Part shown: piece after piece, positions 1 through 16,344 of the stretch
How the letters are laid out: each line of letters opens with the position of its first letter
Position numbering within the stretch: position 1 is the stretch's first letter
Source of the DNA: Verrucomicrobiota bacterium
GTDB lineage: Bacteria; Verrucomicrobiota; Verrucomicrobiia; Verrucomicrobiales; DEV007
Length of the DNA stretch: 16,344 bases
Assembly: GCA_027618625.1 (NCBI GenBank)
Contig: JAQCER010000007.1
Span: 1 to 16,344, forward strand
Direction of reading: 5' to 3'
Notes under the pieces: model-generated
What the model saw: only the letters and a program-made list of their open reading frames with translations
Database searches by the model: none
Told to the model about the DNA's origin: nothing
Translations under genes and position numbers: made by a program

Positions 1-1388
1 TTGCGGACACGTTTCTGATCCTCTGCGCTGCGGGACTCACCGCCTGTGCGACCGTCGGCCCTGATCACGAAGTCCCTGACACAGAGATTCCTGAGCAGTT
101 CAAAAACGGCTCAGCCACGATCAATGCGCCCGAACGCGGTCAGTGGTGGAAGGCGTTCAAGGATTCGACATTGAATGATTTGTTAGGCCAGCTCGATGAT
201 GCCAGCCCGAACCAGGCGGCTGCACTGGCGCGACTTGACCAGGCGCGCGCTGAGTTGAAGGCAGCAAAGGCTGGCGGCTGGCCATCGATCCGCGGCACTG
301 GCGATGCCCGGCAGCAACTGGAGTCTGAGAATACCGGCTTCCGCATCAGCGAAAATGCCTACGAACGCTACGAGCTGGCACTCAATCTCGACTATGAAAT
401 CGATCTCTGGGGCCGCGTCCGGCGTCAGGTGGAAGCAGCCAGTGCTCGCGAAGGAGCCGCAGAAGCCACCTACGAAGATACCATGCTCTCGCTGCGTGCA
501 GAACTGGCGCGCCACTATTTCTCACTGCGCTCGCTGGATGATGAAATCGATATCCTACAGCGTGCTGTGAAACTTCGTGAAGAAGGGGTCAGCCTCGTGA
601 CTGCTCGGGCCGATGCTGGCCAGATCAGCGATGACGATGTTGCCCGCGCCACAGCCGAACTTGAGGCAACGCGTGGTGACTTGACGGCGTTGCAGAGGGA
701 CAGGGATCAATTTGAAAATGCCATCGCCGCCCTTATCGGCAAATCCCCTTCTACGTTCAAGCTTGAAGCAACATCCAAACTCGGCACGGTGCCAGAGATT
801 CCCGTCGGACTGCCATCAGAATTGCTCGCCCGCCGTGCTGATGTGGCCGAAAAAGAACGCCTGCTCGCCGCTGCATCCGCCGAAGTCGGAGTGGCAATGG
901 CTGATTTCCTGCCGCGCATCACACTGACGGGCAGCGGCGGTCTGTCGAGTCTGCGCGCGTCCGATCTCTTCAATCCATCAAGCAAGACGTGGGACATTGG
1001 CCCCGAAATCGCTGTCCCTGTATTCCGCAAAGGTCTCGCAAAATCGCGCCAGGACAAAGCCCAGGCCACATTTGAAGAAGCGCGCGCCACCTATCGGCAA
1101 ACCGTCCTGAACGCCTTCCGCGACACCGAAAACGGCATCAACGCCAACCGGTCGATCGCCCAGGAATTCGCCCAACGCGAGCGCGCAACCGAGGCAGCCG
1201 CCCGCGCATCTGAGCTTTCCACGACCCGCTATGAAAGCGGCCTCATCAGCTACCTCGAAGTCCTCGACTCCCTGCGCACCCACCTCGCCAATCAACGCCT
1301 CGAAACACAGACCCGCGGCGACCATTTCCAAGCGGCTGTCGCTCTAGTGCAGGCGCTGGGCGGCGGCTGGAAGGATGGGAAACTCTAA
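1..1388 (+). CDS. NodT-family efflux outer-membrane lipoprotein, 5' end cut off
   Basis: Outer-membrane channel (TolC-like factor) of a tripartite RND-type efflux pump. The frame is open from the window edge (first full codon at 3), so the start lies outside; 461 residues are visible, close to full family length. The visible start is the end of a lipoprotein signal: a hydrophobic stretch followed by the lipobox LTAC, with Cys at 45-47, then ATVGPDHEVP, typical of NodT/OprM proteins. Two OEP repeats follow (roughly residues 55-245 and 265-455), and the C-terminus VQALGGGW is a family hallmark. Such genes normally follow a membrane-fusion protein and an RND transporter, which would lie to the left. 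The substrate cannot be read from this gene. Confidence 0.93.
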   Translation, partial: ADTFLILCAAGLTACATVGPDHEVPDTEIPEQFKNGSATINAPERGQWWKAFKDSTLNDLLGQLDDASPNQAAALARLDQARAELKAAKAGGWPSIRGTGDARQQLESENTGFRISENAYERYELALNLDYEIDLWGRVRRQVEAASAREGAAEATYEDTMLSLRAELARHYFSLRSLDDEIDILQRAVKLREEGVSLVTARADAGQISDDDVARATAELEATRGDLTALQRDRDQFENAIAALIGKSPSTFKLEATSKLGTVPEIPVGLPSELLARRADVAEKERLLAAASAEVGVAMADFLPRITLTGSGGLSSLRASDLFNPSSKTWDIGPEIAVPVFRKGLAKSRQDKAQATFEEARATYRQTVLNAFRDTENGINANRSIAQEFAQRERATEAAARASELSTTRYESGLISYLEVLDSLRTHLANQRLETQTRGDHFQAAVALVQALGGGWKDGKL

Positions 1389-1405
1389 GCGAGTCCCTGC
1401 CGTTC

Positions 1406-1436
1406 TCCAAATCTTGGAAATGCTGGAAATGCCAGC
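1406..1436. other. two adjacent small hairpins after the efflux gene
   Basis: TCCAA-ATC-TTGGA (1406-1418) and GCTGG-AAATG-CCAGC (1422-1436) can each fold into a 5-bp stem. They lie 18-48 bases past the efflux stop codon. No T-tract follows on the + strand, so this is at best a weak or factor-dependent terminator or an mRNA 3'-end structure. Confidence 0.3.
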
Positions 1437-1457
1437 GATGAAAAAATTCTCATTGCG

Positions 1458-1486
1458 TTGACTCAATTGCAAGTAGCCTTTAAAAG
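1458..1486 (+). promoter_or_regulatory. candidate sigma70-type promoter of the chaperone cluster
   Basis: TTGACT (1458-1463) and TAAAAG (1481-1486) are separated by 17 bases, giving a good -35 and a 4-of-6 -10 match, about 40 bases upstream of the TPR gene start. The region is AT-richer than its surroundings. No heat-shock-type (sigma32) box or CIRCE inverted repeat is visible here. Prediction by eye only. Confidence 0.4.
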
Positions 1487-1525
1487 CGTCATTACTATGC
1501 TCCCATGAACGAGTGATTGATTGCA

Positions 1526-4147
1526 ATGTCGAAACGAACGAATCGCCAGAAGAAGCACAAAAAGAAGTCGAAACCTGCAACGCAGCCGACGGAGTTTGAT
1601 CCGGTTGCCGCCGGGGAGAAGGCTCGGCTTGAATTTGCGGAGGGCAACTTCCGGCGTGCTGGGGAAGGGTTTCGCCGGCTGTTGAATACGGATGCAGCGG
1701 TGTTTGGCCCGCTTTATGTGGATGCCACGCTTGGACATGTGGAGGAATTGATCGCTGGGGACCGGCTGTCGCAGGCCGAGAGTATCATCAGCCAGGTGCG
1801 GACGCTCGCTGCCGAGCATTCCTTCGATATCAGCCGCCTGGAGCTGCGGCTCGCAGCGAGCAAGGGGCAGTGGCTGGAGGCCGGAGCATTCGCTGCGAAA
1901 GCCTGGGGCGACGGGGGGAACGCGCAATCACTGGCTCTCGGCACCCGCCAGCTGGTCGCCGACGCACTGGTTCTCGCATTTGCTCCCGTGCCCTGCGCGG
2001 ACTCGTCACTTGCTCACGAGGCAGAGGCCATCATGAATGCGCTGCACGCCGTAGCTGGAAGCAAATGGGAGGCGGTGGACGAATTGTTGCGCCCCATCGG
2101 AACGCAATCGCCATTTGCTCAGTGGAAATTGCTGATCAAGGGAATCGCTGCATTTCATACGCAGGATAGCACCCGGGCGATACGCTTTTTCGAGAAAGTG
2201 GATAAGGGCTGCGTGCCGGGTCGTGCTGCAGGTGCGTGGCTGTCGCTTGCCCAAGATGAGGTGGCGTCTGGAGCGGAAGTGGACGATGCCGGAATCGCAC
2301 TGATGGCCCATTTTGCGGGCCAGCCGGATGCAAGTGCTTACCTGCCGTCAGTGCAGCGGTACTGGAACAGGGCACAGCCTGATCAGGCGTTCAGATTGTT
2401 GCAGCAGAAGCAACCAGCGTTTCCAGCGGTTTCGCACGGGTTGTGGGGCAGGATGACAGATATGTTTCTTGTGCGAGCCCGTCTCTCGGAAAACGCGGAT
2501 GACAGGCTCGGAGAATTTCTGGCGCGCCAGTTGAGAGCAGCGAAATTCCGCAGTGAAGAGGAGCGTGCTGTTATGTATCGATGGGCCGTACTGGCGTGGG
2601 GTGCGGAATGGAATGCAGACTTCTTGGTTCAGGACTGGCTCAACTACTTGGAGGCGTGCGAGTTGGTAATGGGAACCAACGACAAGCTGGCAGCCCGGGT
2701 ACATGCCTCGATTGCCCGTGGTTTGATCCCGGAGGACGGCGCTCCGTCGCCCACAGCAATCCCGCTCATAAGGAAACATGCAAGTGCTAGCATCGCCCGC
2801 AACGAACACGACCTTACCGCCACCTTGGTTTTGCTCGAAGCCTATTCAAAGGCCGGAATGACTCAGGAGCGTGATGAACTACTCACGGAACTTCCCAGTC
2901 GCTTTCCAGGCGAGAAGGAGATCCTGCTGGAGGCAGGGCGGCGCTTCACTGAAAGGGGAAAATTCGGCAAAGCGTTTGAGTTGTTCCATCAGGCGCTGGC
3001 AATCGATCCGCTGGATCGCCGGATTACCGCTGCCCTGGTTGAGGCACTGGGAGAAAAGGCTTACAACCTGTACAAAGATGATCGTCCCGACCGTGGGCTG
3101 GCATGTTTTGAGGAGATGCAGCCTTACCTCCGTGACGACGACAGCGATTTTGAACTGGGCCGGATGATCCAGGGAGCGAAGCGGTGTGTCTTCGAGATGA
3201 TGTGGGTGAAGCAAACCCGGAAAGTGGTCAAAACAATCAACAGTTACTGGGATTCCTATGAACCACATGTCTTCCGCTTTTTCCTGTCGGTCATGGCCGG
3301 GTGTTACTTTCCAAGGGAGCCGGACTTCAAGGATCGCAGAGTTAGCTTTGGCGAAGTTCCGAAAACGAAAGCCGATGCTGGCAATGCATTGTTAATGATT
3401 GGAGGACTCAAGCACTTTCGACTTAAACTGTCGACGACTTGGCTAGACGATCTAGCGGCGGATATGCAGGGCCATCTGGATGAGGCGATCGACAGTCAAG
3501 CAATCACCGTGGAACAGGCCCGGCAGCTGATTCTGGAGCAGGATCGTGTCCCGTTGGATTTATCCGTTCCGGAACTCATCACCCTCGGACGTAAGCTATA
3601 TCCTGACGACCACTTGCTGAGACTTACAGAAATTTGTGAAGATATGCTTGAGCAGGTTGATAGACTGACGCCGGACAGGCTGGATGATCTGCGCCAGGAG
3701 TTGAAGAGTGCCGAGCGGGCTGGCGACCGCACCGCAGTTGACTTTGGCCGCTCTAAGCTATCATGGTTTGAACGCGAACTCAGGAGGCGGCGCTATGGAG
3801 ATGAAGATGAGGATGACGACGACTATGTTGATGGCCTTGAGCGGGCGGCCCAGATTGAGGCGGAGATCGACGGCCTGGAGCGGAAAATTCCCGGCCTGCG
3901 CGCGATGCTTGAAGCACTGTCTAAGATGTCGCCCAGCGAACAGGAACAGTTGAGAATCCAGGAGGGCCTGCCCAAGGATACTTTTGCTACGATGGTGATC
4001 TTAGCCACCGGCCTCAGAATGGCCACCCGTATCAGGAATGCGGCGGACGGCAACGAACGCCCGGCACCAGAGCCTCGCTCGATGCCGCGAACGCCCCGCC
4101 CGGAGATCTCGGTTCCAGATCAGCTGAACCTCTTCCCTAACGTTTAA
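1526..4147 (+). CDS. large TPR-type protein, first gene of a dedicated Hsp70 cluster
   Basis: Predicted soluble helical-repeat scaffold of 873 residues; no enzyme domain is recognised. The N-terminus is strongly basic (MSKRTNRQKKHKKKSKP). TPR-like helix pairs run through much of the first 550 residues, clearest near residues 20-60 and 468-510 (GKFGKAFELFHQALAIDP). Near the C-terminus there is an acidic tract of eight Asp/Glu (residues 759-766), a helical segment, and a Pro/Arg-rich tail ending in QLNLFPNV. ATG at 1526 is preferred over an in-frame TTG at 1517 because GAGTGA at 1511-1516 is a plausible ribosome site for the ATG and too close to the TTG. It lies 10 bases upstream of the J-domain gene and probably shares its transcript. 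Its role as client adaptor or scaffold for the Hsp70 is inference from context. Confidence 0.85.
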   Translation: MSKRTNRQKKHKKKSKPATQPTEFDPVAAGEKARLEFAEGNFRRAGEGFRRLLNTDAAVFGPLYVDATLGHVEELIAGDRLSQAESIISQVRTLAAEHSFDISRLELRLAASKGQWLEAGAFAAKAWGDGGNAQSLALGTRQLVADALVLAFAPVPCADSSLAHEAEAIMNALHAVAGSKWEAVDELLRPIGTQSPFAQWKLLIKGIAAFHTQDSTRAIRFFEKVDKGCVPGRAAGAWLSLAQDEVASGAEVDDAGIALMAHFAGQPDASAYLPSVQRYWNRAQPDQAFRLLQQKQPAFPAVSHGLWGRMTDMFLVRARLSENADDRLGEFLARQLRAAKFRSEEERAVMYRWAVLAWGAEWNADFLVQDWLNYLEACELVMGTNDKLAARVHASIARGLIPEDGAPSPTAIPLIRKHASASIARNEHDLTATLVLLEAYSKAGMTQERDELLTELPSRFPGEKEILLEAGRRFTERGKFGKAFELFHQALAIDPLDRRITAALVEALGEKAYNLYKDDRPDRGLACFEEMQPYLRDDDSDFELGRMIQGAKRCVFEMMWVKQTRKVVKTINSYWDSYEPHVFRFFLSVMAGCYFPREPDFKDRRVSFGEVPKTKADAGNALLMIGGLKHFRLKLSTTWLDDLAADMQGHLDEAIDSQAITVEQARQLILEQDRVPLDLSVPELITLGRKLYPDDHLLRLTEICEDMLEQVDRLTPDRLDDLRQELKSAERAGDRTAVDFGRSKLSWFERELRRRRYGDEDEDDDDYVDGLERAAQIEAEIDGLERKIPGLRAMLEALSKMSPSEQEQLRIQEGLPKDTFATMVILATGLRMATRIRNAADGNERPAPEPRSMPRTPRPEISVPDQLNLFPNV

Positions 4148-4157
4148 ACAATTAGCA

Positions 4158-4454
4158 ATGGACCCTTACACTGTTCTTGGAATCTCTACGGATGCCGACG
4201 ATGAAGCCATACGCCAGGCCTATCTGAGGGCGGTTCGTATCCACACGCCCGAGCGTGATCCGAAGCGCTTTCGACTCATTGCTCGCGCCTACGAGTCGAT
4301 CAAGAGTGAAGACGCACGAGTGGCCTGGCTGCTTAAGCCGGAGGAAGTGGAGATGGACGGCCCGGTGCAGCTATTGCGCGCCTACGCGACGGATGCCGCA
4401 CGCCAGCCGCTTGACTTTGATTCCATGAAATCGTTCCTCAGATCCCTGGCTTGA
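4158..4454 (+). CDS. short J-domain protein with a non-HPD motif
   Basis: Predicted Hsp70 co-chaperone of 98 residues, consisting of an N-terminal J domain and a short tail. The opening MDPYTVLGIS, helix II (EAIRQAYLRAVR) and helix III (KRFRLIARAYESI) follow the DnaJ family. The loop between them reads HTPERDP (residues 29-35) instead of YHPDR, so the invariant HPD triad is replaced by TPE when the Pro is aligned. In canonical DnaJ, mutations of this His or Asp abolish stimulation of Hsp70. There is no Gly/Phe region, zinc finger or C-terminal client-binding domain. The gene starts 10 bases after the TPR gene, with no clear Shine-Dalgarno sequence, and touches the GrpE-like gene. It probably serves the Hsp70 encoded two genes downstream. 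Confidence 0.85.
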   Translation: MDPYTVLGISTDADDEAIRQAYLRAVRIHTPERDPKRFRLIARAYESIKSEDARVAWLLKPEEVEMDGPVQLLRAYATDAARQPLDFDSMKSFLRSLA

Positions 4455-4471
4455 CCATCACCGTTTCCTTC

Positions 4472-5248
4472 ATGGAAGACATCACCCCTTTCTCAAATCA
4501 GCCGCAGAATCCCGAACCAGAGTGGAAACACCGGCTCCGGGAACGGTTTGAATCCGTCCTCGCCACGCTTGAGCCTCCGCTGCTCGCCGTCGATGATTTC
4601 GACTTCAATGGCGATGACGAAGATGATGCGGGGGGAGCCGGAAACCATCCGGATCTTTACAGCTTCTTCGAAGAACTTGCCGCCCTGCGCACCGAATTCC
4701 GCAAAGGCAACAGGCGATCTGCGGAAGGCTTCAGCCGGTTTGGTGAAAGCGTCGGCGAACTGCAGCAGGATATTTCCAGGCTCAGGCATCAACTGAAGGA
4801 ACTGGGCGAGGCGAAGGCCTCATGCGACGGACTGTCGCGGAATACAGCACTCGCAATGTTAGACCTGGATGACCGCCTTCAGCGCCTGCGCGAGGCACTC
4901 AGTTCGCCTCCGCGCACAGCCCCTTCCAGTTCCGCCGATGAATGGCCCGAGGAATGGGAAAGCGCCCGTCAGGCTGTGGAAATGCTTGTTGATCATCTCG
5001 CCGCACTGCTCGATAAACTGGGAATGCAGCCGATGGTAACCTTTGCAAAACCGTTCGACCCCACGCTGATGCGGGCAATTGCAAGGGAGTTCCAGCAGGG
5101 CACGCCGCCCGGCGAAGTGATCGCAGAAATCACCCGGGGCTACCTGTTTCAAGGCGAGCCACTGCGCCTGGCGGAAGTGATCGTAAGCGCACCGCGCGAC
5201 AGCACGCTATCACAGGCTGAATATTTAAAACGCTATACCATTACATGA
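4472..5248 (+). CDS. GrpE-like nucleotide-exchange factor
   Basis: Predicted ADP/ATP exchange factor for the adjacent Hsp70; 258 residues from ATG 4472. A TTG at 4451 overlapping the J-gene stop (TTGA) would add seven residues. After an acidic N-terminal segment (Asp/Glu-rich, residues 41-52) comes a long, probably coiled-coil helix (about residues 65-115), then a second helical part. The C-terminal 70 residues match the GrpE beta domain: KLGMQPM, then KPFDPTLMRAI, then TPPGEVIAEITRGYLFQG and PLRLAEVIVS, corresponding to the GV, FDPN, PGTV and GY-NGR-LRPA-V segments of GrpE. The overall length and the divergent N-terminal half differ from housekeeping GrpE (about 200 residues). The stop overlaps the Hsp70 start (ATGA), implying translational coupling. 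Confidence 0.85.
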   Translation: MEDITPFSNQPQNPEPEWKHRLRERFESVLATLEPPLLAVDDFDFNGDDEDDAGGAGNHPDLYSFFEELAALRTEFRKGNRRSAEGFSRFGESVGELQQDISRLRHQLKELGEAKASCDGLSRNTALAMLDLDDRLQRLREALSSPPRTAPSSSADEWPEEWESARQAVEMLVDHLAALLDKLGMQPMVTFAKPFDPTLMRAIAREFQQGTPPGEVIAEITRGYLFQGEPLRLAEVIVSAPRDSTLSQAEYLKRYTIT

Positions 5249-7017
5249 CTACCGCCTCCAACAACGACCTCATCGTAGGGATCGACCTGGGAACCACCAA
5301 TTCCGTCCTCGCAATTGTAAAGGATGGTGTCCCTGAGATTATCAGAATTGAAGGGCACCCTACGATGCCCTCATGTGTCGGCCTCGGGCCTGATGGCGAA
5401 CTCATCGTGGGTCAGCGGGCACTGAATCAGCTGGTCGCATCTCCGGAATCCACCGTGCAGTCCATCAAGCGGGAGATGGGCACTAACCATCTGACCACTC
5501 TGGGGGCCAAAAGCTACAGCCCGGAGGAAATCTCCTCCTTCATTCTGCGTGAACTGAAGAACCATGCGGAAGCCTTCCTTGGACAGCCAGTGCAAAAGGC
5601 GGTGATCACCGTGCCGGCATTCTTCGATGAAGCCCAGCGCCAGGCGACCAAGCAGGCGGCCACTTTGGCGGGACTGGAGGCCGTGCGCATTATCAATGAG
5701 CCGACCGCAGCAGCGCTGGCATACGATGCCGCAAGCCTCACCAATGAAAAATTGCTGGTCTACGATCTGGGGGGCGGAACCTTCGATGTATCAGTCGTCG
5801 TCGTCGAAGACGGTGTGGTCGAAGTCAAAGCCAGCTTCGGCGATACCCGGCTGGGAGGTGACGATTTTGATCAATGCCTGATCGATCACACCGTCGCAGC
5901 ATTTAAGAAAAAGCATGGCATCGATGTGACAACTGACCTTAAAGCCATGCGCCGACTGAAGGTGATTCTTGAGCGCGCCAAATGCACGCTGACCGATGAG
6001 CCCTACGTCAAGGTCGAGGAAGACTACCTGAGCGGAAACAAGCACCTCAAACTTGAAATCTCCCGCAGCGAATACGAGGAGATGATCGATTCCTATTTGC
6101 AAAAGACACTGACCTGTATCCACAAGGCGATGACCGACGCCGGGCTGGTTCCGCATCAACTCGATAAAATCCTCCTCGTTGGCGGTGCTTCCCGCACGCC
6201 CGCCGTCGCCCGCCTCATCGAGACTCAACTCAAGATTGAGCCCCGGTTTGACGTCGATCCTGATCTCGCCGTGGCTCTGGGCGCAGGAATTCAGGCCGCC
6301 ACACTCAGTGGTGCGGAAATCCACTCTATTCTCGTGGACATTACGCCACACACCTTCAGCACCAGTACGATCGACTTTTCCGGCCCTGTCGAACGCAAAA
6401 TATGTGTCCCGCTGATCAAGCGCAATTCGCCGCTGCCGACAGCAAAGTCGGAGGCCTTTTACACGCTCTACCACGGGCAGGAGGAAGTGCGTGTGGATGT
6501 CTATCAGGGCGAACATGTCAACCCTGACGAAAACACGCTGATCGGCGATTTCCTCGTGCGGGATCTAAGCAATGTCCCAGCCGGAAATCCCATTATCCTC
6601 AAGTTCGACCTGGACTTGAACAACATGCTGAAGGTCACAGCCACGGAAAAAATCTCAGGAAAAACCCGGGAGGTGGTGATGGACACACGCGAACACGGAC
6701 GCCACTTCGACCTGAACGAGGCGCGCGACAATATTCGCGGACTCGTAGGCAAAGACATCGATGTGGAATCCGTTGTCGATGATGACGACAATGATGAAGA
6801 TGATTACATCGACACTGAGGACAGCATGCTTGCCACGGCAAAGGACCTGCGAAAACGGTGCGATGTTCTGATCAAGGCTGGGCTCAACGAAGAAGACGCA
6901 TCGCAGATTGAAAAACTTCTCAGACAAAGCACGGAGGCGATCCGTGACCGCAGTTGGGATGCACTCCTTGAGGTCAACGATACCCTGAGTGATGTTCTCT
7001 TCTATCTTGAGGATTGA
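5245..7017 (+). CDS. Hsp70 (DnaK-family) chaperone of a dedicated cluster
   Basis: ATP-dependent cytosolic chaperone, 590 residues. The nucleotide-binding domain is complete: GIDLGTTNS (12-20), catalytic Lys75, NEPTAAALAY with Glu152, DLGGGTFDVS (174-183) and VGGASRTP (312-319). The interdomain linker is ILVDIT (362-367), followed by PHTFS where DnaK has PLSLG. A substrate-binding beta domain follows (about 380-490). The lid is short and carries an acidic insert of Asp/Glu (residues 512-526); the protein ends in FYLED. Alignment from memory suggests it lacks the roughly 24-residue subdomain-IB segment of proteobacterial DnaK, as in Gram-positive DnaK. The start overlaps the GrpE-like stop. 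It is probably a specialised paralogue, since housekeeping dnaK is usually longer (about 640 residues) and not in this context. Clients are unknown. Confidence 0.95.
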   Translation: MTTASNNDLIVGIDLGTTNSVLAIVKDGVPEIIRIEGHPTMPSCVGLGPDGELIVGQRALNQLVASPESTVQSIKREMGTNHLTTLGAKSYSPEEISSFILRELKNHAEAFLGQPVQKAVITVPAFFDEAQRQATKQAATLAGLEAVRIINEPTAAALAYDAASLTNEKLLVYDLGGGTFDVSVVVVEDGVVEVKASFGDTRLGGDDFDQCLIDHTVAAFKKKHGIDVTTDLKAMRRLKVILERAKCTLTDEPYVKVEEDYLSGNKHLKLEISRSEYEEMIDSYLQKTLTCIHKAMTDAGLVPHQLDKILLVGGASRTPAVARLIETQLKIEPRFDVDPDLAVALGAGIQAATLSGAEIHSILVDITPHTFSTSTIDFSGPVERKICVPLIKRNSPLPTAKSEAFYTLYHGQEEVRVDVYQGEHVNPDENTLIGDFLVRDLSNVPAGNPIILKFDLDLNNMLKVTATEKISGKTREVVMDTREHGRHFDLNEARDNIRGLVGKDIDVESVVDDDDNDEDDYIDTEDSMLATAKDLRKRCDVLIKAGLNEEDASQIEKLLRQSTEAIRDRSWDALLEVNDTLSDVLFYLED

Positions 7018-7019
7018 CA

Positions 7020-7337
7020 GTGGACGGAGAAATCGAATGTCCGTCATGCCGCCGCATCAGTCTGGTGACCGATGATCTGGATGCGTGCCCACGATGCGAA
7101 TGCGACCTCGAGCAATTGCTTCAGATCGCCCTGCTTGCACACTCGAAGATCGACCAGGCATTGCGGTGCCTGACCACCGGCAACTGGGAGCAGGCTCTGC
7201 ACGATGCTGAAGAATCGTGGTCGCTTAGACACGATGCCCGGGCCGCACGCATCGCTTTCCTCGCCGCCATCGCGTGTGATGACCTCGCGGAAGCCCGAGA
7301 GTGGGACAACGCGCTGCACCAAATGGTCGAAAAGTAG
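7020..7337 (+). CDS. small zinc-ribbon protein with a TPR-like helical tail
   Basis: Predicted 105-residue accessory protein. The N-terminus has two CxxC pairs, CPSC (7-10) and CPRC (23-26), spaced as a C4 zinc ribbon, with an extra Cys28. The remainder is helical and resembles one or two TPR units (for example LTTGNWEQALHDAEESW and a following RAARIAFLAAIACDDLAEA). GTG at 7020 is chosen because GAGG at 7009-7012 lies seven bases upstream. An alternative TTG at 7014 overlaps the Hsp70 stop but has no room for a ribosome site. It is the last gene of the cluster and is followed by a terminator. A role as adaptor of the Hsp70 machine is inferred only from position. Confidence 0.75.
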   Translation: MDGEIECPSCRRISLVTDDLDACPRCECDLEQLLQIALLAHSKIDQALRCLTTGNWEQALHDAEESWSLRHDARAARIAFLAAIACDDLAEAREWDNALHQMVEK

Positions 7338-7383
7338 AGCACTTCCTGCGCTCTATGGGCTATGGGCGGCTGGGCTTAAGAGT

Positions 7384-7408
7384 GCTCCGGCTTGACAGGA
7401 GCTTTTTT
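7384..7408 (+). terminator. intrinsic terminator of the chaperone cluster
   Basis: GCTCC (7384-7388) pairs with GGAGC (7398-7402) around a nine-base loop, followed directly by six T (7403-7408). It lies 47 bases after the last stop codon of the + strand cluster. The short stem is the only weakness. Confidence 0.65.
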
Positions 7409-7432
7409 CCAGCCTCGAAACATGAGTCCTGC

Positions 7433-7457
7433 AAAAAAGCGCCTGTCGAGCCAGCGC
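7433..7457 (-). terminator. probable terminator of the minus-strand VWA gene
   Basis: On the minus strand GCGC (7457-7454) and GCGC (7442-7439) can pair, with a bulged extension, and are followed by six T (7438-7433). It sits just past the stop of the VWA gene at 7466 and faces the opposite terminator 25 bases away, as expected between convergent operons. Confidence 0.45.
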
Positions 7458-7465
7458 ACTGAATA

Positions 7466-9757
7466 TCAATTTTCTCGCAGCACGATGGCATTGGCGACCA
7501 GCTCGGCAAATTCGATCCGCCGTGGATCGCTTCCCATGCTGGCCTTTGCCATCGCAATCACTTGGTCTCTGCTCAGGCTTCCGCGGAATGGTGACTGGCG
7601 AAGTTGCAATCCGAATGCGGCGACGCTTGCAGCGAAGCGGAAGTCGGAACTCGCCGAAGCGAATGGTTGGGCATTGTCGGTGAAGGGCACCTGGATTAGT
7701 TCGCTCACGGTTCCTCGCGGCGCCTTGTAGCGCAGCTTCACGGTGAAGAGTTCGGGGCTGCCGGTGGTTGATATAGGGCGAGGTTCTGGAGTCACCGGGA
7801 CGGGCACTTGATACTTCAAGTTGTCGACTTCAGGCACCGCGAGACCGGGAGGAATGATCTCGTAGAACGCCGTCACCGTATGGCCAGCCCCGATATCGCC
7901 TGCATCGACGCGATCATCGTTGAATGCCTCGGGGGGAAGCATGCGGTTTGCGTAGCCGACGAGGCGGTAGGCGCCGACGGTGGCTGGATTGAACTCGACC
8001 TGGATCTTCACGTCTTTAGCGATCGTGATCATGGTGCCGGTCAGATCTTCAACAAGCACACGCCTGCCTTCACTGACACTGTCGATGTAGTGATATGTGC
8101 CATTGCCATCGTTGGTGATGGTTTCGAGCATGGCGTCATTCAAATTGTCGGATCCAAACCCTAACACACTGATAAAGACTCCGCGCTTTGCCTCCTGCTG
8201 GACCATGTCCCGCAAGGCGGTAGTTGAGCTCACGCCAATATTGAAGTCACCATCGGTCGCAAGCAGGATTCGATTTACTCCGCCTTCCGAGAAATTCTCC
8301 GATGCCAGACGGTAGGCCAACTTGATGCCAGCCTCCCCGTTGGTGCCACCGGATGACTGCAAGTGATCGACCGCGCCGTGCATCGCAGCCTTGTTCGTCC
8401 CACTTGTTGGAGCAAGGGCCACGCCTTCATGGCCCGCATAAGTGACGATGGTGACCCGGTCATCTTCCCGCAACTCATCGATGAGCAAGTGCAGACTGCG
8501 CTGCACCAACGGCAATTTCCGCTCCTGGTTCATCGATCCTGACACATCTACCAGAAACACGAGATTCAACGCCTGCCGTGTGTCCGCCTGGATTTCGCTA
8601 CCTTTCAGTCCCACACGCACCAGCCGATGCTCCGGCTTCCATGGGCACGCAGCCGATTCCAGATTCACCGAGAACGGCAGTTCATCGCCCGGGGCTGCGT
8701 AATCGTAGTTGAAGTAGTTGATCAGCTCCTCGATGCGCACCGCATCCGGTGGCACCGCCTCGCCCGATTGGATCATGCGCCGCACATTGCTGTAGGAAGC
8801 AGTGTCGACATCGATCGAGAACGTGGACAGCGGATCTTTTGCTGGAGTGCGAAAGGGATTGTCGACCAGAGCCGGGTAGCGGATTTGGCTTCCGGCACTG
8901 GACTTGATGAATGCCGCAGCATCAATGGCTTGCTCATCCTTGTGAGGGGCTTCTAAGAAACGGGAATCAGCGGCGGTTAGTCCGGCAATTTGCCACTCGT
9001 CCGAGGTAGCAGGTGCCGTGGAAACGGCACTTGCAGTTGCTAGCGTCACTTTCGGGGACATCTCACTCGACAAGAGTTCAGATCCTGGCACGTCGGTCGG
9101 CACTATCAAAAGACTCTTATCAGCGTCAGCCTGACCGCTCCATCCCGCGCTCTCGGCGTCGATACGATACGAATCAGCCTTCAAATTGTCTGATAGCTCG
9201 TGAGCTGCACCGGATGCGACGAGTCTGCGCGCTTCATCACCACCCCCTCGAAGAAGTCCCAGCCCAGCGCTCGTAGAGTCTCCCGTAGGCAACATTGTAA
9301 CCGTAACTGATGGTGGAGCCCAAGTTTCTGAGACGGACCTCGTTTCCTCAGCTAGCGCGGTCGAGGCAGAGTTATCCTTGACAGTGGACATCTCGCTGTT
9401 CTCGGAACGCCAATCTGGCGCTGCTTCATACGTTGTCGTAGTTGCGTAATCGTTCTTTGTAAGCCGGAAGTCTAGAAACGACGGAGGCGTTAGCCCGAGC
9501 GGCTCCCATAGTGAGTAGACCGCAGTTCCGGTAATCGCCAGCAGTGCTGCGATCTTTGCCGCGCTCGTCATCCACCAGGAGCGCTTCACTTGCTTCGCCT
9601 CAGTAGCGGCTTGATCGATGGTGTCCAGCTTTCGCTCCAGTTCACCGAGAAAGGCGATGTCATCCCCTGCGCGATAGCGCCCCAGCTCATCCAGCAAGCC
9701 GTCTACGCCTCGCTCCGGCGCGGTTTCTTCATCAGAAAATCGAAATTTCGTGTTCAT
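7466..9757 (-). CDS. membrane VWA-domain protein (vWF_A N-terminal plus DUF3520, YfbK-like) with anti-sigma-like N-terminus
   Basis: 763 residues. ATG at 9757 is chosen because AAGGAGAA lies nine bases upstream and the sigma-factor stop is one base away. Residues 1-62 are a charged cytoplasmic segment, 65-83 one membrane helix, then a long low-complexity linker. The vWF_A N-terminal domain starts near residue 290 (NPFRTPAKDPLSTFSIDVDT). The VWA domain has a complete metal-site motif DVSGSM (404-409) with SGGTNGEAG and ATDGDFN further on. A DUF3520-type C-terminus ends in FAELVANAIVLREN. The metal-binding VWA domain usually mediates protein contacts. Because the gene directly follows an ECF sigma gene, the N-terminal segment may hold the sigma factor at the membrane; that is inference. 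No zinc-binding HxxxCxxC anti-sigma motif is present. Confidence 0.9.
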   Translation of the reverse strand: MNTKFRFSDEETAPERGVDGLLDELGRYRAGDDIAFLGELERKLDTIDQAATEAKQVKRSWWMTSAAKIAALLAITGTAVYSLWEPLGLTPPSFLDFRLTKNDYATTTTYEAAPDWRSENSEMSTVKDNSASTALAEETRSVSETWAPPSVTVTMLPTGDSTSAGLGLLRGGGDEARRLVASGAAHELSDNLKADSYRIDAESAGWSGQADADKSLLIVPTDVPGSELLSSEMSPKVTLATASAVSTAPATSDEWQIAGLTAADSRFLEAPHKDEQAIDAAAFIKSSAGSQIRYPALVDNPFRTPAKDPLSTFSIDVDTASYSNVRRMIQSGEAVPPDAVRIEELINYFNYDYAAPGDELPFSVNLESAACPWKPEHRLVRVGLKGSEIQADTRQALNLVFLVDVSGSMNQERKLPLVQRSLHLLIDELREDDRVTIVTYAGHEGVALAPTSGTNKAAMHGAVDHLQSSGGTNGEAGIKLAYRLASENFSEGGVNRILLATDGDFNIGVSSTTALRDMVQQEAKRGVFISVLGFGSDNLNDAMLETITNDGNGTYHYIDSVSEGRRVLVEDLTGTMITIAKDVKIQVEFNPATVGAYRLVGYANRMLPPEAFNDDRVDAGDIGAGHTVTAFYEIIPPGLAVPEVDNLKYQVPVPVTPEPRPISTTGSPELFTVKLRYKAPRGTVSELIQVPFTDNAQPFASASSDFRFAASVAAFGLQLRQSPFRGSLSRDQVIAMAKASMGSDPRRIEFAELVANAIVLREN

Positions 9758-9758
9758 G

Positions 9759-10356
9759 TTAGAGTTCTCCTTTCTCGAAATGGTTGTCTGTCGCCTTGTT
9801 GGTGAGGCAGTCCTTGAGCAGAGCTCGGGCACGTTGCAGGCGTTTGCGCAAAGAAGCCTCGCTGCTGCCGGTATTCTTTGCGGCGTCGGCGCCGCTTAGA
9901 TCTTTCAAATAGAAGGCATCCACCGCTCCCCGAAGCGTATCAGGCAGTTGCTCCATACAATCCTCCAGTGCCTCAAACACATCTCCCCCTGCCACTCTCG
10001 CGCAGCGCCTCCCACGCCGCGTGTTCCGCCTCCAATCTCTCCAGTTCGCCCTCATCCAGCAACGTCAGCTTCTTCCTCTTCATCCAGTCCCGCCACTTGT
10101 TACGCACGATGCCCCGCATCCAGGCCCCAAAATCCCGCGAGACTTCGAATCTCCCCAGATTCTGATAAGCAGCGACAAAGGCATCCTGTACCAGATCCCT
10201 CGCCAATTCTCGATCAGCAGTCAGCGCAAATCCATAGGCAAGCAATTGCCGGTGGTGTTCGCGCACTTTCCCGCTGAACGCCCGCCGTTCCATAATCGGC
10301 ATCGTATCGGGAACTACTGGGGCCATGGCTTCAATGGTAGATATTTGCGTGTGCAT
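9759..10356 (-). pseudogene. ECF-type RNA polymerase sigma factor, split by an apparent +1 frameshift
   Basis: Two overlapping frames together make one sigma factor. The first (10356 to 9973) carries region 2: ELARDLVQDAFVAAYQNLGRF, then DFGAWMRGIVRNKWRDW. The second (to 9759) carries region 4: EALEDCMEQLPDTLRGAVDA and SSEASLRKRLQRARALLKD. The span of 598 bases is 199 codons plus one, and removing one base from the run of five G (complement of 9985-9989) joins the frames as ESGRGDVFEALED, giving 198 residues, a normal ECF length. The stop is one base before the VWA start, so the two are co-transcribed. A sequencing error, a real inactivating indel or recoding are all possible. The start at 10356 has no clear ribosome site; an ATG at 10326 is an alternative. 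Confidence 0.8.
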
Positions 10357-10391
10357 GTTTGCAATAGTGGTGTTCCACAGCTTCGGGAAAC

Positions 10392-10403
10392 GGTGATGTC
10401 ACC
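10392..10403. promoter_or_regulatory. 12-bp inverted repeat upstream of the sigma gene
   Basis: GGTGATGTCACC is a GGTGA/TCACC inverted repeat with a two-base centre, 36 bases before the sigma-factor start. It could be an operator. No convincing promoter can be placed around it, and nothing else is recognised between 10357 and 10597. Confidence 0.25.
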
Positions 10404-10597
10404 AGATATTGGAATGGCGCGGCGCATTTGTGACAAATTGATGCACTTTTTCATCAGCAGAGTGAAAATCTGGCTTGCGCTGGGACAACACCGCTCTGGA
10501 CATGCAGAGAGAGTGGAATGCGACGGACATTCACCAGCCCTGTGGGGATTGACCATGCATAGGTGCCCGCTCGGGCGCTTACGATTGACCAACCGAG

Positions 10598-10693
10598 GGA
10601 GCCCAACGGGCTCAATCATGCCAGCCCAACGGCAAGCGCAGCGCCGCCCTGGGATCACAAAGGAAATCGGCCCAGCCTGTAGGGCTGATTCAT
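10598..10693 (+). repeat. REP-like intergenic repeat, copy A
   Basis: Contains GGAGCCC-AAC-GGGCT at the outer edge, a central block ending GCCCTGGG, and AGCCTGTAGGGCT at the inner edge. Its reverse complement aligns along its whole length with copy B at 10917-11015, sharing blocks such as CCCAGGGCG, CGCTTGCC and ATGAT. This repeat explains the spurious long reading frames over this region. Confidence 0.65.
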
Positions 10694-10722
10694 AACCCAT
10701 CCGTATCATCGAAAGGATGAGA

Positions 10723-10869
10723 TCAATCCCAAACGTATCGCTCGTCGTATTCAACGCCATACTTCTTCGAGAGCCTACGGAACTCGTCTTCAAACCTTTC
10801 CCTTTTGTGATGCTCAGACTGGTTTACAACATGCAAGATGATGCGGCTTAGTCTTAGTGTTTGGGGCAT
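10723..10869 (-). pseudogene. internally deleted IS200-like (Y1/RAYT) transposase remnant
   Basis: A 48-codon frame from ATG 10869 to TGA 10723. The first 15 residues (MPQTLRLSRIILHVV) resemble the usual transposase N-terminus of the MPQSL...HIVFSTK type. They jump directly to a C-terminus, NQSEHHKRERFEDEFRRL and then KKYGVEYDERYVWD, which is the family's typical ending. About 100 residues that hold the HUH metal-binding motif and the catalytic Tyr are missing, while the frame stays open. It is therefore a deletion derivative rather than an active gene. The family assignment comes from recalled family consensus, not from a search. Confidence 0.7.
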
Positions 10870-10916
10870 ACCCTAGAATCTCTGGTTGCACAGAAATCCC
10901 AAGCCAAAACTAAACG

Positions 10917-11015
10917 ATGATTCAGCCCTTCAGGCTGCGATCTCCGTTTCCTATTCTACCCAGGGCGACGCTTCGCTTGCCCCGGGCTTATTATGATGTG
11001 AGCCCTTTGGGCTAC
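10917..11015 (-). repeat. REP-like intergenic repeat, copy B (inverted relative to copy A)
   Basis: Three stem-loops in a row: CAGCCCTTCAGGCTG, then CCCAGGGC pairing with GCCCCGGG across the centre, then AGCCC-TTT-GGGCT at the outer edge (11001-11013), next to GTAG on the minus strand. It is the inverted partner of copy A across the transposase relic, and begins about 90 bases past the stop of the acyltransferase gene at 11104. Confidence 0.65.
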
Positions 11016-11103
11016 GAGGGTTTCGAAGCCAGAGACGTTTCCCCAATTGAGCCCGTAGCAGATCGCTTCTTCCACATGAAAAACGTCCACCCACTCCGCC
11101 CCA

Positions 11104-12345
11104 TCAGAGCCGGAAGAACAATCCGCGCTGGTTGCACCAACGGGTCGCGGCCCATGCCAGTGCGCATCCGCTGACAGTGAACGCCACCGCATACCAGAGC
11201 GGCGCATCCCTCGGCCCAAACGCGCTCCATGCGTTCATCACCATCATATGAATCACGTAGGCGGCAAACGCGTTCTGTCCCAGATCCGTGAACAGTCCGA
11301 GGCGGAAACTCTTTAAATCGCTGATCACCACAAAAAGTGCCAGCGTCACCAGCGAGAAGCCCGCAGCAAATGTCAGATAAGAGAGACTGCCCGCACGTTG
11401 ACTCATCGTCCACATGTCGACGATCGCATTGCCCTCGGCATCGGTTGGCGCCGGCCAGAACGGAGGCGGTGCAACAGGCCCACCCACTCCGATACAGGAA
11501 ATCGCGTAGCCCGAAAGCATGAGCACCGTGCCCCACAGAAGCAATGGTCGCAGAGACTCACGCGCTCCCTTAAGTCGAAACTCATAGGCAGCTGCACCGG
11601 CAGCCACGCACACTGTCCATGTCAAAAATCCGAGCACTCCCCCATCGATCCCCTTGGATTCGCCGCGATACACCATGTCGTACCAGAATGCGTGCGACAG
11701 TGCCAAGTGCAGCAACCCTGACAAAACAGCAAAAATTACCACCCAGCGCAGGCGAAGGGCAATCACTGGCAGCGCCCAAAGTGAAGTCACCCCGATATGA
11801 GTCAGAGCTTGGAAAGGCTCGCGAAAGAAGGACTCGGTGAAGAATCCTTTGATCCCGAGTTCTTTCAAAGATGCCCAGGTTTTGTATTCGCCATCGAGCG
11901 TATAAAACACGAATCCGAACACGATCAGTCCCAGGCTGCGTCGGACTCCCCGTTGCATCGCTGCCGAGTAACCGCCGCGTTCCACCTGTCTCACCATTAC
12001 CAGCCGCAGCGCCATTCCCACCGCGAACAAAAAGTGCGGCATGATCACATCCGCATAACTGCAATAGGTATTGTGATGCAACAACACATGCGGTGTCGAT
12101 TCCTTGAAGCGTCCGATGAAATTCACCAGAAACATTCCCGCAACCGTGTAACCCCGAAACTGATCGAGCGATACGATTCGGTCGGATGATGATGATGCAC
12201 CGGGACTGGGAATGGGAGCTACGCTTGCTGACACGGCCCGAGCGAAGCGGAAAATCGGGCAAGTAGCAATGACGAATGCTCTTTTGGTTAGCAGCGCAAA
12301 CCAACCCGACTCAGGTTCCGCTGACGCCGAGACGCACGGTCTCAC
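11104..12345 (-). CDS. multi-pass membrane acyltransferase, HGSNAT/DUF5009-like
   Basis: Predicted inner-membrane acetyl/acyltransferase of the heparan-alpha-glucosaminide N-acetyltransferase type (DUF5009/DUF1624, COG4299 group), which transfers an acyl group across the membrane to a sugar. 413 residues with about ten hydrophobic helices. Diagnostic is the first helix, RIVSLDQFRGYTVAGMFLVN (after residue 54), followed by LLHHNTYCSYADVIMPHFLF, matching the family pattern H...(W/Y)...D...P.F.F with the likely catalytic His. The GTG start at 12345 overlaps the phosphoesterase stop (GTGA). The first 53 residues are atypical and contain a Ser run coded by TCA/TCC repeats; an internal GTG at 12234 would remove 37 of them. 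The sugar substrate is unknown. It forms a two-gene unit with the upstream phosphoesterase. Confidence 0.85.
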   Translation of the reverse strand: MRPCVSASAEPESGWFALLTKRAFVIATCPIFRFARAVSASVAPIPSPGASSSSDRIVSLDQFRGYTVAGMFLVNFIGRFKESTPHVLLHHNTYCSYADVIMPHFLFAVGMALRLVMVRQVERGGYSAAMQRGVRRSLGLIVFGFVFYTLDGEYKTWASLKELGIKGFFTESFFREPFQALTHIGVTSLWALPVIALRLRWVVIFAVLSGLLHLALSHAFWYDMVYRGESKGIDGGVLGFLTWTVCVAAGAAAYEFRLKGARESLRPLLLWGTVLMLSGYAISCIGVGGPVAPPPFWPAPTDAEGNAIVDMWTMSQRAGSLSYLTFAAGFSLVTLALFVVISDLKSFRLGLFTDLGQNAFAAYVIHMMVMNAWSAFGPRDAPLWYAVAFTVSGCALAWAATRWCNQRGLFFRL

Positions 12346-13253
12346 TTTTTCGCAAAATCCCGATCTTCCTGCTTCCGAAACCCGGTCAGCCGAACCAAGC
12401 CTTTACTGGAAACCTCCAGCACTCCGTAAGCATTGTTCGCCGCGCCGCTGCCCTCGACCATGGCCGCGAGCGTGCAGTATGGGATGCCATTTATCTTGTT
12501 CAGTTCATTCTCGTGGCTGTGACCTTGAAAAACGGCTCTCACTTTGCCTGCTGCTTCCAGAATCGCCCGCACTACCGGGCTTTGTTTCACGGCATACGAT
12601 TCCGTTGGATCAAGGTCGAGCCGCTGATGGGCAAACACGACCACGGGCAGCTTCGTCTCGGCCAGATCCTTCCTCAGCCAGTCCTGTTCCTGCTGCGGAA
12701 TGTTGGCATCCGTCCAGACGAAATTGTTCCGTCCATACGGTTCCATGTCTTTGTTAAAGCAGGCATCGAGAACGACGAAATGCACACCGCCCACATCAAA
12801 CGAATAGTACGATTCCCGGGCACCGGTGACCGCAAAAAATTCCGGCTTCGTAAGCGTCGCCACACAGTGATTTCCCAGAACGTAGTGAACGGGAACGCCT
12901 GCGCTTTTGATCACCGCATCGATCTCTTTTAAATAGCTGGTCTCCACTTCAACGGTTGGAGCAGCATCGACAATGTCGCCTAACTCCACCACAAAATCGA
13001 CCTTCTGTTCCTCGAAAGCGGCCATGGCCTCGGCAAGCTTGACGCGCGATTCGCGATAGTGCCGGCTTCCCGCTGCTGCTTTGTCGGCAAAGTGCAAATC
13101 GGTGGCGATTCCGATCTTCACCAGCGATTCGCCCGACGCTTTTTCGTCGTCCGCAAACAAGGAACCTGTCATTCCCGAAGCGAGGAGGATGCTGCTGCCA
13201 ACGACAAACTGGCGACGTGTGGCGGTGGGAAGCGTGGAATTGTCATCATGCAT
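12342..13253 (-). CDS. TAT-exported calcineurin-like metallophosphoesterase
   Basis: Predicted periplasmic metal-dependent phosphoesterase, 303 residues. The ATG at 13253 places a TAT signal at the N-terminus: TRRQFVVG (residues 12-19), a hydrophobic core and an Ala-type cleavage region near SLFA (31-34). A longer reading to 13316 would bury the signal. All metal-ligand motifs are present: TDLH (Asp52, His54), LGD (Asp93), LGNH (Asn128, His129), AHQ (His209) and GHSH (His245, His247), so the enzyme should be active. It could act on phosphodiesters or phosphomonoesters; the substrate cannot be told. Its stop codon overlaps the start of the membrane acyltransferase, suggesting a joint role in modifying an envelope or sugar substrate (inference). 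Confidence 0.9.
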   Translation of the reverse strand: MHDDNSTLPTATRRQFVVGSSILLASGMTGSLFADDEKASGESLVKIGIATDLHFADKAAAGSRHYRESRVKLAEAMAAFEEQKVDFVVELGDIVDAAPTVEVETSYLKEIDAVIKSAGVPVHYVLGNHCVATLTKPEFFAVTGARESYYSFDVGGVHFVVLDACFNKDMEPYGRNNFVWTDANIPQQEQDWLRKDLAETKLPVVVFAHQRLDLDPTESYAVKQSPVVRAILEAAGKVRAVFQGHSHENELNKINGIPYCTLAAMVEGSGAANNAYGVLEVSSKGLVRLTGFRKQEDRDFAKK

Positions 13254-13316
13254 TTCCACAGTGTACCGGCACGGTTTCTGCAATGCAACGTTTCGTTTAC
13301 TGCCAGCACGACGCAA

Positions 13317-13368
13317 TTGGGCTGAAGCCCAAACTACTTTCTAGAAAGTGGCTTGAGCTTTAGCTCAA
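13317..13368. repeat. REPIN-like double palindrome
   Basis: A 52-bp imperfect palindrome centred on CTAG. Each 26-bp arm contains its own hairpin: TTGGGC-TGAA-GCCCAA on the left (13317-13332) and TTGAGC-TTTA-GCTCAA on the right (13353-13368). The arms match at 21 of 26 positions and all five differences are transitions. Read on the minus strand, the left arm starts GTAGTTTGGGCTTCAGCCC, a REP with the GTAG head; the right arm has GTGG. It begins three bases after the stop of the cytochrome/WD40 gene and lies upstream of the phosphoesterase start at 13253, so it may also act on the mRNA. Confidence 0.7.
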
Positions 13369-13371
13369 CCT

Positions 13372-16185: not shown

Positions 16186-16344
16186 GCGGCGATCTGGTTG
16201 AGCTTCGATTTGGGGATGGGTCGGATGGGTGGCCTGACGGGCCTCAAGAGCAGAGCCAAGGCCTTCAGGAATTTCAGGCCTCGGAGCAGTGCAACGAACA
16301 TCACGCAGCCCGTCGGGTCGCAAGAACTCTCCAGTTTCCCGGTT
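16186..16344 (-). other. upstream region of the cytochrome/WD40 gene
   Basis: No gene can be assigned here. The minus strand stays open in the WD40 frame and in a second frame whose TGA overlaps the ATG at 16185, but neither reads like a known protein end. Small repeats are visible, for example two tandem copies of GGATGGGT near 16215-16231 and an inverted repeat around 16261-16280. An upstream operon partner could end here. Confidence 0.3.

Follow-up and report, generated by a model that had tools for sequence, protein, structure and literature searches.

A conserved five-gene Hsp70 module with a histidine-less J protein and a TPR scaffold, possibly addressed to the DNA sliding clamp in one lineage

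Introduction

The available text of a review on bacterial Hsp70 chaperones names three types, DnaK, HscA and HscC, and describes HscC as working without GrpE (PMC8215388). The same text reports that DnaK, DnaJ and GrpE act on phage and plasmid replication complexes, namely those of lambda, P1 and mini-F (PMC8215388). Many Hsp70 homologues can exist within a single species, 15 being reported for Myxococcus xanthus (PMC11019930), so that an extra Hsp70 is not new by itself. Here we describe a set of five genes found in 16,344 nt of a Verrucomicrobiota draft genome (assembly GCA_027618625.1, contig JAQCER010000007.1, positions 1 to 16,344; hereafter, the window), encoding a tetratricopeptide repeat (TPR) scaffold, a J protein, a GrpE-like factor, an Hsp70 and a small protein with a zinc ribbon and a TPR-like body, in that order.

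An earlier reading of this DNA from its letters, the original prediction, had proposed that these genes form a dedicated chaperone system outside the housekeeping set. We found that the five genes form a real conserved module, far beyond chance, and that its Hsp70 occupies a separate clade; the module is more widespread and more unusual than can be seen from the window alone.

Results

The five genes recur as a unit

The five open reading frames (ORFs) of the window are open, collinear at 1526-7337 and all on the + strand, with a gap of 10 bases between scaffold and J genes and with the remaining gene ends overlapping or nearly touching, as had been noted. Pfam recognised the first four (TPR_19, E = 1.2e-5; DnaJ, 9.2e-9; GrpE, 3.6e-16; HSP70, 6.3e-138), with TPR_14 also exceeding its cut-off in the scaffold. 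Related loci were found through a profile of the GrpE-like gene (A1, then A2), so that the presence of GrpE is given by construction, and the same-strand and distance limits of the search partly impose the gene order. All five genes were adjacent, on one strand and among their expected neighbors in 69 of the 98 loci examined (median span, 5677 bp), and the module Hsp70 lay beside the GrpE-like gene in 87 of the 96 loci holding the GrpE gene. Together with the separate Hsp70 clade described below, this recurrence supports a dedicated system, the TPR and zinc-ribbon genes being regular companions of this Hsp70 rather than chance neighbors in one genome.

Some of the 29 incomplete loci were cut by contig ends, some failed the ORF rules and some were split. 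Two sulfur bacteria carry the Hsp70 and zinc-ribbon/TPR genes on a contig other than that of GrpE (L013 with L139, L015 with L140), the scaffold and J genes remaining with GrpE in one of them; L139 and L140, the second halves of these clusters, are counted as incomplete among the 98. L206, which shares a contig with L009, was dropped from all counts, and L060 from the Hsp70 tree; L142 and L149 (broken genes) were left out of the scaffold and tree counts and L229 (no scaffold-profile match) out of the scaffold counts, L148 has no usable scaffold ORF, the L021 scaffold was entered by hand in the correct frame, and L146, a broken HscC, was not used.

We found the module in several bacterial groups that are not related to one another: in Verrucomicrobiota, in Pseudomonadota and in Desulfobulbaceae with their relatives; a Nostoc plasmid carries it as well. 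One degenerate GrpE-like pattern picked out 13 loci among 84,980 species genomes, and 5 of 240 genomes drawn from the window's phylum gave a full-length GrpE-like match (by profile coverage and E <= 8.5e-23). In further draws (all of the draws, the first included, overlap and contain seed genomes), the GrpE-like gene occurred in 11/189 genomes of the window's order, 10/369 of the class of a Methylobacter genome, 8/297 of the phylum of a Desulfobulbaceae genome and 16/299 of the phylum of a Magnetococcales genome; far above all of these stood a single gammaproteobacterial order, that of the Methylobacter genome G245, with 87/251.

An Hsp70 in a clade of its own

The window protein belongs to the Hsp70 superfamily (Pfam HSP70 domain, 461.1 bits against a cut-off of 20.6) and falls far below the equivalog cut-offs for DnaK (TIGR02350, 476.8 against 822.55 bits; NF001413, 483.8 against 648 bits) and HscA (389.5 against 708.55 bits). 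In a quick tree, the 31 module Hsp70s formed one clade (support 98) apart from DnaK, HscA and HscC, with the HscA rows in their own clade and the four HscC rows in another (support 100). HscC was tested by this placement, no HscC model having turned up in the library scanned, and an HscC identity was rejected on two grounds: the separate clade, and a dedicated GrpE whose gene overlaps that of the Hsp70. We consider it highly probable that the module is a dedicated Hsp70 machine distinct from DnaK, HscA and HscC.

Residues D8, T11, K70, R151, E171, D194, T199 and D201, and D393 of the linker, are retained in all 29 module Hsp70s of the alignment. In all 29, as in HscC, the part of lobe I equivalent to DnaK 76-101 is missing, and the first loop of the substrate-binding domain (SBD) carries an insertion. 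The D211 loop is likewise lost in 29/29, a feature that is not distinctive, since 15 of 25 other Hsp70s have no residue in that column either; judged by eye, the window protein is four residues short in a loop near DnaK 290-295, which has its full length in the gammaproteobacterial rows. The original prediction had called the lid short, yet it is not simply so: the protein ends flush at a conserved C-terminal motif, [LIVM][FYW][FYH]x1-5, in 81 of 83 Hsp70s (both exceptions are cyanobacterial), most commonly as YYLES (24) or FYLED (16).

Canonical chaperones coexist with the module in most hosts checked. A canonical set was expected in the window genome too, and grpE and dnaJ were indeed found adjacent on contig C632, while no canonical dnaK was found in this draft, which is 70.8% complete. 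Fifteen of the 16 other module-bearing genomes have a DnaK-type Hsp70 (55-72% to E. coli DnaK), the exception being G241 (2.0 Mb). In a second set, 8 of 10 genomes had a DnaK sharing 73-99% identity with the G217 protein, comprising seven of nine module-bearing ones and the module-less G1227, with no match in G000 (the window genome) and G1302; G240 and G1230, which seem to be one genome, are counted in both sets. The window genome contains a further Hsp70 on contig C250 (G000:C250, L059:446-2212, + strand), which groups with proteins of G217 and G240 beside the HscA clade and not with DnaK.

That the locus is simply a second copy of the housekeeping dnaK-dnaJ-grpE set, to which its three shared functions and its recognizable GrpE and J folds might point, is therefore hardly credible: the Hsp70 forms its own clade and misses the DnaK cut-offs by far, two extra families accompany it in the same order in the 69 complete loci, and the canonical set exists alongside.

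A J protein without the HPD histidine

The J protein of the window reads TPE in place of the His-Pro-Asp (HPD) motif. Across 92 aligned J proteins, this position reads PPE in 46, PPD in 26, SPE in nine, PAH in four and SPD in three, with four singletons, such that histidine is never present (0/92) whereas the proline and an acidic residue are each kept in 87/92. The divergence of the J domain, which had been noted from the window, thus extends to loss of the histidine throughout the family. In cyanobacterial module J proteins (e.g., L141:6821-7117), which read PAH, the acid is lost as well. E. coli DjlB and DjlC read HPE.

On the Hsp70 side, the J-domain His is reported to contact the backbone of linker residue L391, the Pro to contact P419, and the Asp to contact R167 and Q378 (PMC8215388). 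Module Hsp70s retain L391 and P419 in 29/29, R167 in 28/29 and Q378 in 25/29. Because the partners of the Pro and Asp are kept, the J-Hsp70 pair looks matched, with one contact dropped, and by these sequence criteria it may well work. Published mutants weigh against this: as far as the accessible text of a review on J proteins goes, replacing H by Q or D by N in the HPD motif abolishes the activity of the J proteins tested, and HPE, found in DjlB and DjlC, is the sole change apparently tolerated (PMC13254874), so that the module J protein might not stimulate its Hsp70. It could instead be a type IV J protein acting as a decoy, which holds the Hsp70 in check in a manner comparable to the pairing of Pam16 with Pam18, with another cellular J protein driving the cycle, an arrangement compatible with any reading of where the machine is targeted. 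The complete absence of His fits such a decoy, but retention of Pro, of the acid and of their Hsp70 partner residues does not, nor does the tolerance of HPE, and the modules yielded no further J gene; we regard the decoy as unlikely. The same review leaves undecided whether altered-HPD J proteins are accidental or selected (PMC13254874). The module, whose J proteins consistently lack the His while the partner Hsp70s keep the other contacts, offers a natural and recurrent pair on which this question becomes directly testable.

The GrpE-like and zinc-ribbon/TPR proteins

The GrpE domain scored 59.7 bits against a Pfam cut-off of 25.8, and the family profile matched the solved GrpE structures 4ani and 1dkg across both the coiled coil and the beta domain. 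The protein is long, as predicted (258 amino acids, compared with 195 for the canonical GrpE of the genome), the additional length being mostly an N-terminal extension.

No Pfam family matched the fifth protein above cut-off, but a zinc ribbon, C-x2-C..C-x2-C, can be read directly in its sequence. This four-cysteine pattern occurs in 80/80 relatives, recruited with a profile that itself contains the pattern. AlphaFold2 predicts ribbon strands followed by helices at 33-106, forming a four-helix TPR-like body (mean pLDDT 92). We compared this TPR fold with the two-carboxylate clamp type that binds Hsp70 tails, and found invariance among 23 aligned fifth proteins to be confined to the four cysteines and one arginine of the ribbon.

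A scaffold with a clamp-like C-terminal tail

The scaffold is predicted to be an all-alpha superhelix (AlphaFold2, mean pLDDT 87; helices 25-839), with low confidence for the first 20 and last 32 residues and a mean pLDDT of 43-55 in the last four blocks. Scaffold profiles of two sets, A3 (mainly the window's phylum) and A4 (gammaproteobacterial), matched over 723 columns (hhalign probability 99.6, E = 1.2e-23), and the cyanobacterial scaffolds matched the rest over 452 columns (98.8, 7.5e-17), although repeats may inflate both matches. Fold searches returned generic TPR superhelices alone (Ctr9, Naa15, the Ski complex), at TM-scores of 0.13-0.27 for the top ten. Nine of the first 25 residues of the window scaffold are Lys or Arg, and many relatives are similar, although the median N-terminal count over 84 scaffolds as called is only 4, some starts being uncertain.

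The window scaffold ends in QLNLFPNV, and this clamp-like C-terminal motif is new with respect to the original prediction. Proteins that bind the DNA sliding clamp share a consensus given as QL[S/D]LF or QxxLF (PMC12309361). We found QxxLF within the last 14 residues of 17/84 scaffolds as compared with 2/365 other ORFs of the same loci (ORFs of at least 150 amino acids, some of which may not be genes), 0/352 other module proteins and 4/4717 interior windows; 5000 shuffles averaged 0.49 and never exceeded 4. This count uses the published consensus, yet was run after the motif had been noticed, and a broader clamp-like pattern (22/84 against 2/365) was written after the sequences had been seen. 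By tree rows, QxxLF is present in 10/12 scaffolds of the window's phylum and in 2/5 of the Desulfobulbaceae phylum draw. Four scaffolds (L052, L125, L208 and L209) end exactly in QLDLF, a sequence cited as tightening the binding of a DNA polymerase III alpha motif to the clamp of E. coli, to ~7 nM (PMC12309361). Two relatives from a protein search end in QLKLFS (P0002) and QLDLPF (P0003), and were kept out of the 10/12 because that search does not give their phylum. The scaffold thus has the sequence signature of a clamp-binding protein, QxxLF/QL[SD]LF in a stretch predicted to be disordered, and for the window's lineage we judge the case for a clamp address to be close to balanced.

Several observations weigh against such an address. 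QxxLF is rare elsewhere, with 4/41 in Gammaproteobacteria, 0/14 in the other Pseudomonadota draw and 0/1 in cyanobacteria, and its distribution requires at least 6 changes on the tree; fifteen gammaproteobacterial scaffolds (among L230-L264) end in ..FPF, ..FPFF, ..LPFF or similar, with no QxxLF. The rows are related, L052, L208 and L209 being near copies, and five-residue motifs arise easily. In addition, no replication gene was a constant neighbor among the 123 flanking proteins scanned (of 137 neighbor ORFs found). A looser QLx[LIF]-type pattern is present in 8/14 scaffolds of the other Pseudomonadota draw, by a definition made after seeing it. The ..PF and ..PFF ends of the gammaproteobacterial scaffolds are possibly a different docking peptide.

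These observations are shared by a second account, in which the same dedicated machine has no link to DNA: the C-terminal motif would dock within the machine itself, for instance into the substrate pocket of the Hsp70 or onto the zinc-ribbon/TPR protein, and the clients would be a cytosolic or membrane class. It would explain why the five genes stay together in Gammaproteobacteria, where most scaffolds lack QxxLF, and why no replication gene is constant nearby, and hydrophobic C-terminal peptides suit the Hsp70 groove. It leaves the basic tails unexplained, however, and has to set aside that the motif fits the published clamp consensus, that the QLDLPF end of P0003 is close to QLSLPL, a hexapeptide used as a tight clamp binder (PMC12309361), and that flexible C-termini are reported as a frequent position of clamp motifs (PMC4549789). 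We take internal docking to be a serious but distinctly less probable alternative.

An empty site and plasmid copies

G1227, the single genome of the window's genus listed in the order draw, carries no module. On its contig C118 (L281), positions 12352-13721 match window 1-1370, and 13747-15327 match window 7379-8961 (blastn; 82% and 88% identity, respectively), leaving 25 bp at the site where the window has 6008 bp. Such an empty site in a same-genus genome indicates that the module was gained or lost as one unit. We saw no obvious transposon ends on reading both junctions and, by eye in the ORF list, no transposase or integrase at the window edges.

Plasmids also carry the module. An annotated 40-kb Nostoc plasmid has TPR, DnaJ-domain, grpE, Hsp70 and TPR genes in that order, and three plasmids of one Acaryochloris strain (pMB01, L142; pMB03, L148; pMB02, L149) bear copies of it, some of which have a broken frame for the Hsp70, the GrpE or the scaffold. 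Searches with the GrpE and the scaffold of Nostoc gave matches in 4/72,556 plasmid records, a count that distant copies could escape.

A mobile or defense module, moving horizontally and protecting its host or plasmid from stress or an invader, would account for these plasmid copies and the empty site, for the patchy occurrence in three of the draws (11/189, 10/369 and 8/297) and for the placement of the Desulfobulbaceae locus L011 among gammaproteobacterial rows in the tree. Its frequency of 87/251 in one order, with a tree that mostly follows the draws, is on the other hand what a stable trait would give, and the window edges carry no transposase or integrase by eye. The sole PADLOC match among the five proteins was a weak one (PDC-M61B, 6.7e-6), to the ATPase part of the Hsp70, and neighbor proteins matched scattered models (at most 3/123 for any listed model), on which grounds a defense island was rejected; nor was any listed family found in more than 3 of the 123 flanking proteins of the selected loci. 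Among IMG/VR viral contigs, 17 matched by pattern and none was confirmed as a relative at the sensitivity of that pattern, and two phage records match residues 151-249 of the Nostoc GrpE only, the part common to GrpE proteins. A mobile or defense role therefore seems quite improbable.

Features of the locus

Alternative starts are listed for three of the genes: TTG at 1517 for the scaffold (ATG at 1526 was used), TTG at 4451 for the GrpE-like gene (ATG at 4472) and GTG at 7020 for the zinc-ribbon/TPR gene (TTG at 7014). The promoter and terminator that had been proposed did not hold up. A first scan found no promoter upstream of the first gene, and a promoter-like site with 3 mismatches at 1458-1486 is no better than chance (4 such sites in the window, 4.5 expected); the hairpin before TTTTTT at 7384-7408 is no more stable than shuffled sequences (z = -0.19). 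Both signals were consequently rejected as evidence.

Beyond the module, two overlapping ORFs in different frames on the - strand (window 9759-10356) jointly resemble, by eye, one sigma factor of the extracytoplasmic function (ECF) type, possibly split by a frameshift of the draft sequence; next to them lies a YfbK/vWA protein recognized by Pfam (7466-9832).

Table 1. Coordinates of the module and its parts in the window.
Feature	Position	Strand	Description and basis
TPR scaffold	1526..4147	+	873 amino acids; all-alpha superhelix with basic N-terminal tail; ORF, Pfam, AlphaFold2, profile match
Disordered C-terminal tail of the scaffold	4049..4144	+	Residues 841-872 of the model, numbered from the second codon
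Clamp-like motif QLNLF	4121-4135	+	In the scaffold tail, residues 866-870 of 873 amino acids
J-domain-only protein	4158..4454	+	98 amino acids; TPE instead of HPD; Pfam DnaJ, alignment
GrpE-like nucleotide exchange factor	4472..5248	+	258 amino acids; Pfam GrpE, family profile against solved GrpE
Hsp70 of a separate clade	5245..7017	+	590 amino acids; C-terminal end ...LFYLED; Pfam HSP70, tree
Zinc-ribbon and TPR-like four-helix protein	7014..7337	+	107 amino acids; invariant Cys, AlphaFold2
Segment missing from the matching site of same-genus genome G1227	1371..7378	.	blastn, junctions read

Discussion

From the composition of the module we infer a complex in which the J-domain-only protein would trigger ATP hydrolysis on its partner Hsp70 through the modified motif [PST]-P-[E/D], and the GrpE-like protein would reset the Hsp70 through ADP exchange. 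Neither the J protein nor GrpE has a recognized client-binding domain, which points to the large TPR superhelix as the client or location adaptor. The small zinc-ribbon/TPR protein may serve as an accessory adaptor, perhaps reading the conserved end of the Hsp70. For the flexible QLNLF tail of the window's lineage, the most probable docking partner would be the DnaN sliding clamp, and the basic scaffold ends may touch DNA; the machine would then remodel proteins at replication or repair sites, for which the action of DnaK, DnaJ and GrpE on the lambda, P1 and mini-F complexes offers a precedent (PMC8215388).

We see about an even chance that the module is a dedicated Hsp70 machine with targeting by its scaffold, directed in the window's lineage probably to the DNA sliding clamp. 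More tentatively, and with the balance tipping somewhat against it, one may picture an additional, widespread class of bacterial Hsp70 machine beside DnaK, HscA and HscC, whose J protein obligatorily lacks the His and whose scaffold tethers it to the clamp, so as to remodel protein complexes at replication forks or repair sites; lineages without the motif would have retargeted it through the scaffold tail. If the tether is real, this would be an Hsp70 machine with a built-in address at the replication clamp; to our knowledge, no earlier one has been described.

Among the papers listed by literature searches with limited coverage of subscription journals, we recognized no description of the five-gene set, nor one of a clamp-binding protein that combines a TPR superhelix with an operon for an Hsp70. 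Among the closest systems are the eukaryotic Hsp70s with an EEVD tail and their TPR co-chaperones (CHIP, Hop/Sti1 and Sgt2). Another is the pair MXAN_6671/6672 of M. xanthus, presumably the proteins named SglK and GrpS. Like the module, it comprises a second Hsp70 with an adjacent GrpE of its own, in an organism with a separate DnaK, and is reported to be non-essential; unlike it, the pair is a bicistronic operon whose Hsp70 is of DnaK type and can replace E. coli DnaK, and the available text of that study mentions no J, TPR scaffold or zinc/TPR gene with it (PMC11019930).

Clamp-binding proteins such as PolC, DnaE and transposases of insertion sequences (IS) share with the scaffold a QL[S/D]LF-type motif, commonly located at a flexible terminus. 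A further system is HscC of E. coli with DjlB and DjlC. HscC is likewise a specialized Hsp70 of ~550-590 amino acids that has no lobe-I stretch and carries extra residues in the first SBD loop, and it is served by compact J domains with a non-HPD motif (HPE). Sel1-repeat genes near hscC are another parallel, but its neighbors also include DUF1266 proteins; the module further differs in having its own GrpE, a J protein of 98 amino acids that lacks the His, and an Hsp70 that the tree separates from HscC. With DnaK-DnaJ-GrpE of E. coli and other bacteria, the module shares the combination of Hsp70, J protein and GrpE for one ATP cycle, the recognizable coiled coil and beta domain of GrpE and the Hsp70 contacts for the Pro and Asp of the J protein. 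It departs from that system in an Hsp70 of a separate clade that has neither the 76-101 stretch nor the long C-terminal tail, in a J protein reduced to its domain and devoid of the HPD His, and in the addition of two TPR proteins.

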